Shown here: positions 2,192 to 13,849 of the stretch, in pieces
How positions within the stretch are numbered: the first letter of the stretch is position 1
Layout: every line of letters starts with the position of its first letter
Assembly (NCBI GenBank): GCA_018714325.1
Contig: DVNN01000098.1
Location: 1-42,369, forward strand
Length of the DNA stretch: 42,369 nt
DNA from: Candidatus Pelethocola excrementipullorum
Lineage (GTDB): Bacteria; Bacillota; Clostridia; Lachnospirales; Lachnospiraceae
Direction of reading: 5' to 3'
Notes under the pieces: generated by a model
Told to the model about the DNA's origin: nothing
The model's database searches: none
Seen by the model: the letters and a program-made list of their open reading frames with translations, nothing else
Made by a program: the position numbers and the translations under genes

Positions 2192-4183
2192 TCAGAAATA
2201 CAAAGCCTCTATTTTTTTAAAGCCATCATCCATATTGTAGGCCATCACAGCTTGATCCATCACCAGATAAAATGTATTACCTGCATATACTCCTCTGACC
2301 CTGTCGCCAAACCTGTTTTCTCCTGCATTTACTTGGAGAATCTGTTCAAACCCATGTTCCTGGCTATAGGAATAGATCAGATACAGAAGGGAATCCTTGC
2401 CGCTGTTGTAGGCCGGAAAACCAATCAAATTCCTTTCCTGATCGATTATTACGGATTTATAGTTTTCTACCGCGGGCGTATCAGACAGCTGGGTCATCAC
2501 CGCCTTATCCTCTTCTTTTACATTATTGGGATCGGAAATATCAAACATGGATAATTTGATACCTTCTTGCCAACCGGTGTTTGGATCCGTCTCATAACCA
2601 ATTCCCAGCAGCCGGTTCTCACTCCAAAAATGCAGATAATCGGAAAATCCTGTGACTTTCAGCTCGCCAATTATCTTGGGATCCTCGGCTTCTGAGAAAT
2701 CCACACTGAATAATGGATCCGTATTCCGATAGGTGACGAAATATCCATAATCCCCCAGGAACCTAGCCGCATAAATCTCTTCTCCACGCGCCAATCCGTC
2801 TACATTTCCACAGTGATTCATTTCTTCATTCAACACAGTGATCTGGTTTGACCAGCCATTTTCATAGATGGTGGTCAGTACACGGAGATACCCGTCCTTT
2901 TCATTGATCGCAAATGTGTCCCGGATAGTTCCATCCACACTGGCTCCTCCTGATACGGTAATCTTTCCAGAATCATAGTGGAACTTGGCTATTCTTGTGC
3001 TTTCCCCGTCTTCATAGGTATTCTCGTATAAATAGATATTAGATTCCGATACATATTCAGAGGCGTCTCCCATAATGAGTAGCTTGGAATCCTGTACCAC
3101 TCCTGGGTTCTTCACGTCTATGGACGAAATTAGAAGTCCCTTGTCTCCGCCTTCCTCTGTCACCAAAATATCGTCAGGCTGAAATACCTCACCATTGATG
3201 CTCGGCAGCCAATCACCGACCTTATCCTCCTGAACTGCACGCTTCCGCTTCTCCGGCAAGGACAGTTGGGTGGTGGTAAATAAATAGACATACCCATCCG
3301 ACTTCCTGGAAGTCTTATAAGCACCTTCCTGCGTAACCACACCCTTCAACACCGGTTTCTTAGGATTGCTGATATCATAGGTATACAGGTGGACCGTACT
3401 GTTTTCCTTCATCTGATAGGCGTCCATATCCTCCATAAGCGATAAATCAACCGCTCTATCTCCACAGACAACCTGTAAAAGATCTCCGTCCACATATAAT
3501 TCATATAGCTCAGTTTTTCCGTTTCCGCTCTTCTGGCTTCCCTCGGGTCTCAGCGTATTTACTATTGTCAGCCCGCCGTCTTTAATGTCTATGATCTTGA
3601 TTTCATTACCATCCGCCACATATAGAAAACTGCCATCGGTCTTTACCAAATCCCCTTCATCCACTCCCTCTGTCTGCACATTGGTGGTGGAGTGGGAAGG
3701 GCTGGCAGAGGACGATTCCTTGGATCCGGATCCACTCTCCAGGGAACCAGCATCCTCCATCATCTTCTCATCCCCATCATACTTAACTGAAGTTTGCTGA
3801 CCTCTCTCAATCGCATCATAAACGCTCCCATAATCCGCCACCGACTCATAGGGATTCTTACCATTTGAGGCCACCTCTACCTCTGATTCCAGCTTCCCGG
3901 ATCCGCTTGTATCTGAATCCATGACCGTTTGGGATTCCATCATCGGGCTGCTCTTACTGGTATCTCTCATCCCCATTCTCGCTATGGCCATAACACTTCC
4001 GAAAACCACCAGACAGGCGGACGCCATGGCGACATAGCGGCCTGCCCTTCGGAATCTATTTCTCTGCTCTTCTCTTTTCTTTTCAACTAAAATGGCCTCT
4101 ATCCTTTCGGGCTTTAGGCTTTCAGGAATCTGAATGTCCTCCGCAGAGTCCTCTAACTCCTGCCATATTTTCTTCTCATCCAT
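2192..4183 (-). CDS. Membrane-anchored beta-propeller domain protein with anti-sigma-like N-terminus
   Basis: Cytoplasmic N-terminus, single TM (YVAMASACLVVFGSVMAIA), long extracytoplasmic repeat domain resembling the Beta_propel family; directly downstream of an ECF sigma gene. Confidence 0.75.
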   Translation of the reverse strand: MDEKKIWQELEDSAEDIQIPESLKPERIEAILVEKKREEQRNRFRRAGRYVAMASACLVVFGSVMAIARMGMRDTSKSSPMMESQTVMDSDTSGSGKLESEVEVASNGKNPYESVADYGSVYDAIERGQQTSVKYDGDEKMMEDAGSLESGSGSKESSSASPSHSTTNVQTEGVDEGDLVKTDGSFLYVADGNEIKIIDIKDGGLTIVNTLRPEGSQKSGNGKTELYELYVDGDLLQVVCGDRAVDLSLMEDMDAYQMKENSTVHLYTYDISNPKKPVLKGVVTQEGAYKTSRKSDGYVYLFTTTQLSLPEKRKRAVQEDKVGDWLPSINGEVFQPDDILVTEEGGDKGLLISSIDVKNPGVVQDSKLLIMGDASEYVSESNIYLYENTYEDGESTRIAKFHYDSGKITVSGGASVDGTIRDTFAINEKDGYLRVLTTIYENGWSNQITVLNEEMNHCGNVDGLARGEEIYAARFLGDYGYFVTYRNTDPLFSVDFSEAEDPKIIGELKVTGFSDYLHFWSENRLLGIGYETDPNTGWQEGIKLSMFDISDPNNVKEEDKAVMTQLSDTPAVENYKSVIIDQERNLIGFPAYNSGKDSLLYLIYSYSQEHGFEQILQVNAGENRFGDRVRGVYAGNTFYLVMDQAVMAYNMDDGFKKIEALYF

Positions 4184-12038: not shown

Positions 12039-12755
12039 TTATATTTCATCAGCTATTTTATCAGATAACCCTTCCCCAAATATGGCAAACACCCGATTTT
12101 CCGGGACCGCCTGAAACCTCAATATCTTTCCTGTACGGGGATGGCGAAAGGACAGTCTATGCGCGCATAGAGCCAGATTCCCTCCATCCTTGTATTGAGG
12201 ATTGTATTTTCTATCTCCATATAATGGCATTCCGGCATGTGCCATCTGTACCCTGATCTGATGATGCCGCCCTGTTTTCAATATAATTCGAACCAGCGCT
12301 TTTCCATCCGTCTCACTTTGTTCCAATATCTGATACTCTAACTCGGCCAGCTTACCGCCAGGTGTTCCCTTTGTCGTCACTTTTGAAAAATTGCTCCTGC
12401 CATTTTTCAAGAGATAATCCACAAGTCTCCCCCTTGTTATAGTCTGGGCATGATCTACCACTGCCAGATACTCTTTGTGAATCTCATTTTTCTGCATCTG
12501 AGCATTCAATATCTTTGCAGCGCCAGGATTCTTAGCAAAAACAATAACACCTTCCACTGGCTGATCCAGACGATGAATTACTGCCAAATAGGGTATTCTT
12601 CTTCCAACCTTTCCCTTACCGGCCAAATAGTTCAACAGCAGATGTTCCATATCCATCTGACCAACTCCGGCATGTTGAACCGCCATCCCTGCTTTTTTCC
12701 TCACCACCAGAATATCATCATCTTCCATTAATATATCTTCTACATTAAAGTCCAT
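12039..12755 (-). CDS. RluA-family pseudouridine synthase
   Basis: Catalytic motif HRLDQPVEGVIVFAKN; GRHHQIRVQMAHAGMPLYGDRKY. Likely start is the Met at 12755 (RBS gggagag), not the ORF-track start at 12917. Confidence 0.85.
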   Translation of the reverse strand: MDFNVEDILMEDDDILVVRKKAGMAVQHAGVGQMDMEHLLLNYLAGKGKVGRRIPYLAVIHRLDQPVEGVIVFAKNPGAAKILNAQMQKNEIHKEYLAVVDHAQTITRGRLVDYLLKNGRSNFSKVTTKGTPGGKLAELEYQILEQSETDGKALVRIILKTGRHHQIRVQMAHAGMPLYGDRKYNPQYKDGGNLALCAHRLSFRHPRTGKILRFQAVPENRVFAIFGEGLSDKIADEI

Positions 12756-13054
12756 CTTCTCTCCCGGCACTCTCCACATCAGTTCTGTATAGGTTTTCAC
12801 CTCTTCACAAAGTATGAAGCAATTCTTCTTCTTTGTCAACTCCAAGAAAATTCCAGATGCATTGACAATCATATGCGTCCTGCTTTTAAAAGATGACAAC
12901 ACAACGACAGCCGCCATATCACATTTGATTGATACGACGGCTGTCTAATGGTTTTCTTTATTCAATTTTTTATTCTCTACTTTCTCTTATTCCTTTTCTA
13001 TTAGTACCTTATTTTATTTACCTTTCGTAAATATGAATACTATCCTTTCTATAT

Positions 13055-13814
13055 AATTCCCTGCTTCATAAGTTCCTACTCTTAACTCTGTTTTTTATTA
13101 CTATATCTTTGGTTCAATTACAAATAATGAACTAATAATTATGGTAAATCTTTATATCGGGGGACAATACACCCCACACAAATGAAATCCTAGTTACTAT
13201 CTTATATTGTAATCTCTATACGATATTTCATAAAAATCAGAACTTAAAAGTTTATCTTACTTAGAAACGTTACGTCTATCTATATTGATATATAAGAGTT
13301 TCCATATAATAACCACGTTTCTATTATATTTCCAGATGTACCATCCATATTTCCTCTCAATATAGATACTACTCACCGAATAAAAGCGTCCAACCAAATG
13401 ATTTTAGTCTTTAATCCCTATCTATACTTTTGATTCCAATGGTTATACATCTCTTTTGAAATTATTTCTTCACATAATCTCAAAAGTCTCTTCATATCGT
13501 GGTATGTATTCAATACAAGTGTCAGCTTTAGCTACCCTTCATCCTATATGTTCACCTCTTTTGTGAATCTCTTGCTATACTTAGCTGATAAAAGGTCTTT
13601 CTTGCGGGGAACTGCTAGACAATACCACCCTCGTATTGATAATGATTACCTGTCTTTCCCAATGGAAGCACCTCCTTTTCTTCCTCTCCTGCAATTTTTT
13701 ATGAGGATACTTTCTTCGCCTTCCCTTTACTACTAAGGCTTTCTCGTCACCTTATCAAATAGTTACTACCAAAAAATTTGGAAGGGGTGCAGGAATTTCT
13801 TTGTCCTTGTTGTT
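13055..13814 (-). ncRNA. Candidate large structured non-coding RNA (or exceptionally long structured 5' leader of the rluA-like gene)
   Basis: Canonical promoter immediately upstream. No long ORF on the minus strand. Many helices (all minus strand): CTTTTGAGATTAT(13486-13474)/ATAATTTCAAAAG(13465-13453); CAATAC(13638-13633)/GTATTG(13625-13620); TATCTATATTGA(13368-13357)/TCAATATAGATA(13288-13277) interleaved with TAGAAACGT(13323-13315)/ACGTTTCTA(13270-13262); ATATCG(13226-13221)/CGATAT(13159-13154); possible long-range AATTCC-TGC(13797-13789)/GCAGGGAATT(13064-13055). The 3' end is uncertain. Confidence 0.6.
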
Positions 13815-13820
13815 AACTGT

Positions 13821-13849
13821 ATAATATCAAACTATCTTCATTTTGTCAA
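13821..13849 (-). promoter_or_regulatory. Strong sigma-A-type promoter driving the candidate ncRNA
   Basis: Minus strand TTGACA (13849-13844) - 17 nt - TATTAT (13826-13821). Confidence 0.75.

Follow-up and report, generated by a model that had tools for sequence, protein, structure and literature searches.

A candidate class of large structured RNA in the Lachnospiraceae, with a pseudoknotted core and a conserved translation start

New classes of large structured bacterial RNA are rare, and the functions of OLE, ROOL, and GOLLD are still poorly understood. OLE is a large, single-copy, chromosomal structured RNA of the Bacillota, and the staphylococcal RNAIII is an independent structured RNA of several hundred nucleotides with an internal Shine-Dalgarno sequence and a small ORF. 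ROOL and GOLLD are phage- and prophage-borne and frequently sit close to tRNAs (PMC12286853), and the raiA motif RNA (ModT) is a widespread conserved structured non-coding RNA of the Bacillota (PMC11706538). The smtA motif, or 'Soda Lake RNA', is large, has several covarying stems and an unknown function, and is reported only in Thioalkalivibrio (PMC11109978).

Here we describe a predicted RNA encoded on the minus strand of the window, the whole 42,369-nucleotide stretch of a Candidatus Pelethocola excrementipullorum contig that was analyzed. A sequence-only reading had proposed a large ornate non-coding RNA with its own promoter at this locus, and homologues, covariation, and a conserved promoter support that proposal; the RNA is hundreds of nucleotides long, elaborate, covarying, and pseudoknotted, as large ornate RNAs are. 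It resembles ROOL and GOLLD in being large (500-900 nt), pseudoknotted, and elaborate in secondary structure, but it is chromosomal, often lies between a hydratase gene and rluA, has no tRNA gene in the window, and gave no match in phage and plasmid searches. It is like OLE in being large, single-copy, chromosomal, and structured, but differs in having a conserved translation start and no Rfam match, and its gene neighbours are, to our knowledge, unlike those of OLE. The conserved Shine-Dalgarno sequence, start codon, and small ORF within a structured RNA recall RNAIII; however, the ORF and the pseudoknot overlap here, and the peptide does not appear to be under selection, the synonymous fraction in the variable codons being at or below neutral. 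The raiA motif is represented in Rfam without a match here, and the new RNA is longer and found only in Lachnospiraceae; the smtA motif is similar in size and in its covarying stems, and we see no relation between the two.

The Rfam 15 families give no match to the RNA in the window or at 40 homologous loci, and the ROOL, GOLLD, and OLE models, a comparison that the sequence-only reading had proposed, find nothing in the window region at E-values up to 10, at 20 homologous loci at E-values up to 1, or at 20 distant loci at the gathering score, so that the RNA belongs to none of these families. A divergent RNase P RNA or tmRNA was also considered and rejected, as six carriers have ordinary genes for both elsewhere. 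Searches of openly accessible literature returned no earlier description, and fragments of the RNA may stand among the 3161 human-microbiome candidates of PMC8040213. Because relatives were found only in the Lachnospiraceae and no catalogued RNA family matches it, the RNA seems to represent a class of large bacterial RNA that has not been described before.

Homologous intergenic sequence, whose existence in related genomes the sequence-only reading had left to be checked, occurs across the Lachnospiraceae. At the DNA level it is recognizable in five of the six congeneric genomes and in two other genera. A covariance model built from seven cores (R1) matches 36 of the 397 Lachnospiraceae genomes sampled, and a second model built from 55 cores (R2) matches 76 of them, spread over 63 of 334 genera and nearly always in single copy; these prevalence counts are lower bounds owing to strict filters, and the E-values of such home-made models are rough. 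R2 found no carrier outside the family among 341 class-level and 349 phylum-level genomes sampled, and across 295 order-level genomes R1 matches only inside it. A degenerate pattern scan of named records returned 52 loci, 46 of which match R1, and every genus name that these carry (Blautia, Lachnospira, Lactonifactor, and Anaerosacchariphilus) belongs to the Lachnospiraceae. Seven of 53 pattern-scan loci (five in Bacillaceae or Paenibacillus, one in Halanaerobium, and one on a viral contig) were discarded as chance matches in coding sequence, since they do not match R1 and fall within open reading frames, among them a MurE-like one. The viral contig (L103, 1300-4900) carries a tRNA cluster and an abiF RNA, and its pattern match is coding sequence unrelated to the RNA described here; the RluA protein used as a query against viral contigs returned nothing. 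One genome contains two divergent copies of the RNA (L118 at G125:C7 and L030 at G125:C12), while the other carriers have one.

The predicted limits of the transcript are as follows.

13821-13849, minus strand: sigma-70 type promoter, TTGACA-N17-TATTAT (11/12 consensus, the top promoter-like site of the region)
12897-13814, minus strand: predicted RNA transcript of about 0.92 kb (bounded by the conserved promoter and the terminator-like hairpin, which enclose conserved structure)
12906-12945, minus strand: terminator-like hairpin of 16 pairs, GACAGCCGUCGUAUC...GAUAUGGCGGCUGUC, with a U-rich tail (the sole terminator-like site of the region)
12811-12839, minus strand: separate promoter of the downstream rluA, TTGACA-N17-CATACT (10/12 match)

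The near-ideal promoter had been placed at exactly this position, and TTGACA-N17-TANNNT is kept upstream of 93 of 96 homologous cores; the predicted +1 is A13814. A terminator-like hairpin of related sequence is present at the 3' end of most relatives, although its U-tract is weak in the window, and in sister genomes the same order of hairpin followed by rluA promoter can be read. Because the terminator-like hairpin is followed by a second promoter before rluA, the RNA probably extends from about 13814 to 12897 and forms an independent unit. The span first proposed, 13055-13849, is shorter than this predicted transcript. Estimated transcripts in 70 relatives range from 440 to 1031 nt with a median of 735. 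The strong folding potential that had been claimed is also found: the strand folds at -185.7 kcal/mol, compared with -155.6 +/- 7.5 kcal/mol for shuffles (z = -4.0, from only 20 shuffles).

The RNA has a conserved core of 180 nt, composed of three nested helices (P1 to P3) and a crossing helix (Pa), all with compensatory changes.

13488-13666, minus strand: conserved core modelled by R1 and R2 (158.8 bits with R2; 90.6% of helix cells paired and two-sided changes in 21 of 24 pairs, 55 sequences)
13630-13639, minus strand: 5' strand of pseudoknot helix Pa, UCAAUACGAG (pairs with 13519-13510)
13622-13628, minus strand: 5' strand of helix P1, GUGGUAU (partner 13505-13499; 97.4% of cells paired, two-sided changes in 5 of 7 pairs)
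13614-13621, minus strand: 5' strand of helix P2, UGUC(U)AGC (partner 13526-13520; compensatory changes at each pair)
13587-13596, minus strand: 5' strand of helix P3, ACCUUUUAUC (partner 13543-13534; two-sided changes in 9 of 10 pairs)
13534-13543, minus strand: 3' strand of helix P3, GAUGAAGGGU (pairs with 13587-13596)
13520-13526, minus strand: 3' strand of helix P2, GCUGACA (pairs with 13614-13621)
13510-13519, minus strand: 3' strand of pseudoknot helix Pa, CUUGUAUUGA (pairs with 13630-13639)
13499-13505, minus strand: 3' strand of helix P1, AUACCAC (pairs with 13622-13628)

Compensatory changes in P1, P2, and P3 (P3 being written ACCUUUUAUC/GAUAAAAGGU in the homologue comparison) are already visible in seven sequences aligned with MAFFT without reference to structure. 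In sets of 33, 55, and 40 sequences, 83-91% of the P1-P3 cells are paired and 20-21 of the 24 pairs show two-sided changes; covariation of the core is two to three times that of shuffled alignments in all three sets and collapses when the helices are slid (0.422 versus 0.145 shuffled and no more than 0.10 slid in the set of 55), with the proviso that the model aligned A3-A5 to P1-P3, which biases them towards these helices though not towards Pa, and that the shuffles ignore relatedness. Pa (UCAAUAUGAG/CUCAUAUUGA) is absent from both R1 and R2. In the near set 95.4% of its cells are paired, compared with 33-40% in slid controls, and in 40 distant members, which are out of sample, the figure is 96.5%; each of the two sets contains 22 compensatory cells. 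The crossing of P1 by Pa makes the core a pseudoknot, within which P2 and P3 are nested. A 6-bp hairpin at 13638-13620 in the sequence-only reading competes with Pa and is not conserved, with 77.6% of its cells paired versus 76.1% in shuffles; its bases belong to the pseudoknot.

Beyond the core helices we identified two hairpins, a helix closing the 3' domain, and conserved motifs.

13734-13754, minus strand: hairpin P0, loop GACGAGAAA (13748-13740), stem UAAGGU/GCCUUA (loop in 53 of 101 members, covarying stem)
13453-13486, minus strand: hairpin P5, loop GUGAAGAA (in 78 of 101 members, covarying stem)
13488-13498, minus strand: 5' strand of helix P8, GAUAUGAAGAG, which closes the 3' domain (pairs with about 13298-13287; consensus structure of four RNAs from the genus)
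13287-13298, minus strand: 3' strand of helix P8, CUCUUAUAUAUC (same consensus structure; Blautia consensus)
13257-13267, minus strand: conserved motif UUUCUAAGUAA (exact 11-mer in 19 of 55 members; the commonest shuffled 11-mer reached 4)
12958-12967, minus strand: conserved motif AAUUGAAUAA, just 5' of the terminator-like hairpin (AATTGAATA in 46 of 55 members)

Covariation, which the sequence-only reading had named as the check on its helices, is thus strong in the nested core, the crossing pseudoknot helix, and the hairpins. P5 is the 13-bp hairpin already noted at 13486-13453, which proves to be real, and its loop is GUAAAGAA or GUGAAGAA in 76 of the 78 members that have it. Among the other short complementary pairs that had been listed, several fall outside the conserved structure, and GGGG/CCCC at 13175-13160 lies within an insert that sister species lack. 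P8 is long and closes a multi-branched 3' domain in the window's genus, and the Blautia consensus has an equivalent pairing. In shuffled sequence the motifs UUUCUAAGUAA, AGCAGGGAA, and AAUUGAAUA are far rarer. The 8-mer AUUGAAUA occurs twice, in the 3' strand of Pa and in the motif at 12958-12967, and in the members compared by eye the second copy was not seen to change together with an altered Pa.

The region contains no normal minus-strand ORF in about 0.9 kb, as had been claimed, but a 15-codon ORF with a good Shine-Dalgarno sequence at 13662-13615 had been overlooked, and there is no other open frame.

13671-13676, minus strand: Shine-Dalgarno sequence AGGAGG, 8 nt 5' of the start codon (SD-like sequence in 97 of 101 members)
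13615-13662, minus strand: short ORF of 15 codons with a TTG start (MGKTGNHYQYEGGIV), ending at a TAG within the pseudoknot core (start codon and open frame conserved)

The Shine-Dalgarno sequence and start codon lie approximately 24-27 nt 5' of the pseudoknot. The start triplet is at a fixed place in the 101 members and is ATG in 52, TTG in 40, GTG in 8, AAG in one, and CTG in none; its second and third bases are constant in 100 and 101 members respectively, and its first base has undergone about 18 parsimony changes on the tree, none of them to C. The distance from the start codon to the CAAUAU strand of Pa is divisible by three in 87 of 100 members, as measured from a simple anchor that is misplaced in a few, and an open frame runs into the core in 80 of 101. 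Read-through into the core is not universal, since in about one fifth of the members the frame does not continue into it; out-of-frame members tend to stop within eight codons (Fisher p = 1.7e-5). The variable codons between the start codon and the core give no sign of selection on the amino acids (synonymous fractions of 0.18 and 0.14, with 0.23 expected), and the ORF peptides match no Pfam or NCBIfam family; translation into the core, and not a particular peptide, thus seems to be what is conserved.

The comparative evidence shows a predicted architecture of promoter, pseudoknotted core, P0, P5, P8-closed 3' domain, terminator-like hairpin, and conserved ribosome entry site. We think it most likely that the locus is an independent gene encoding a large structured trans-acting RNA whose fold would be gated by ribosomes, and neither a leader nor an ordinary mRNA. 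Ribosomes would load at the conserved Shine-Dalgarno sequence and start codon, and one that translates the short ORF would cover the 5' strands of Pa, P1, and P2, so that the translating ribosome and the folded core are expected to be mutually exclusive. The RNA could then act in trans in a structural or scaffold role, its fold being set by its translation state, for example by the number of initiating ribosomes. More tentatively, and with rather less confidence than in the independent gene itself, it may be a translation-gated RNA machine, alternating between a translated form and a folded active form as a trans-acting sensor of ribosome or initiation status. Transcription, translation, and switching of the RNA are predictions. 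Two findings count against this reading: in about one fifth of the members the frame does not continue into the core, and 75 of 93 downstream genes lie on the same strand (see below), the latter leaving some room for read-through roles. A conserved start codon that would steer ribosomes into a pseudoknot is a concrete and unusual handle on function.

The reading that survives best beside this one, although we consider it unlikely, is that the RNA is a ribosome-independent scaffold like OLE, ROOL, and GOLLD, in which the ribosome site has no control over the fold and serves to stabilize or shield the RNA or to couple transcription to translation. In its size, single copy, separate promoter, and elaborate pseudoknotted fold the RNA resembles those classes (PMC12286853), and the ORFs of 17 of 101 members stop within eight codons, so that a ribosome loaded there would leave most of the core unmelted. 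However, most members keep the frame into the core and breaks of frame are accompanied by early stops, which is beyond what a loading site alone needs.

It is less likely still that the locus encodes a dual-function RNA or a plain small-protein mRNA whose key product is a peptide of 15-36 residues (QYxSGxA...). The Shine-Dalgarno sequence, the real start codons, and the frame-preserving indels would suit such a role, as would recognizable peptides in the distant group such as MDNxxxxxQYVSGMANxSSRRISLNHRG. The conserved residues (the QYxSG part) coincide with the strands of Pa and P1, however, and are confounded with the RNA helices, while for the variable part the lack of amino-acid selection led us to reject a conserved peptide; moreover, the ORF is very short in several lineages, no protein family is matched, and the RNA has hundreds of further nucleotides, conserved motifs among them, that the ORF does not cover.

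The gene neighbourhood bears on whether the RNA is instead a long cis-regulatory leader, either an attenuator or a riboswitch, of the downstream gene, here rluA. Where the sequence is recognizable at the DNA level, it precedes an RluA-family gene or lies one gene from it; in the window's genus and in some other genera the RNA immediately precedes rluA and shares its strand, and both the terminator-like hairpin at its end and the leader-ORF-like start inside it would fit a leader. A PRK11413-type hydratase gene is upstream in 22 loci, and neighbours are conserved in several genera. Directly downstream, however, rluA is found at only 24 of 93 scored loci and a TPR protein gene at 23, with dozens of different genes elsewhere, many of them singletons, and the downstream gene is on the opposite strand in 18 of the 93. 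The RNA is thus not constantly placed 5' of one gene family, and the promoter of rluA lies between the hairpin and that gene. Given such varied genes downstream and a separate promoter for rluA, we discard an rluA leader, and regard a cis-regulatory leader in general as very improbable, in favor of an independent trans-acting RNA. The A+T-rich region, with its easily found short complementary segments, might also suggest a protein gene in decay, a mobile element, or short repeats clustered by chance. These readings can be set aside almost entirely, being contradicted by the compensatory changes among 101 distinct cores, the nearly constant single copy per genome with neighbours conserved across genera, the lack of a plasmid or phage match, and the absence of any open frame beyond the tiny ORF.

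The RNA is present in about one fifth of the sampled Lachnospiraceae, which are major gut bacteria, and since the carriers include cultured Blautia and Lactonifactor its study in living strains is possible.

The mechanically called rluA ORF (12039-12917, minus strand) begins within the terminator-like hairpin, and homology together with the promoter at 12839-12811 suggests that the true rluA start is near 12753. In eight distant relatives the gene immediately upstream of the RNA encodes a homologue of a beta-propeller protein (PF09826; window 2192-4183, minus strand), whose gene in the window is 9 kb away from the RNA. A Clostridiales-1 RNA (RF01699) at 5-206 on the plus strand, scoring 87.3 bits, is the only Rfam match in the window.
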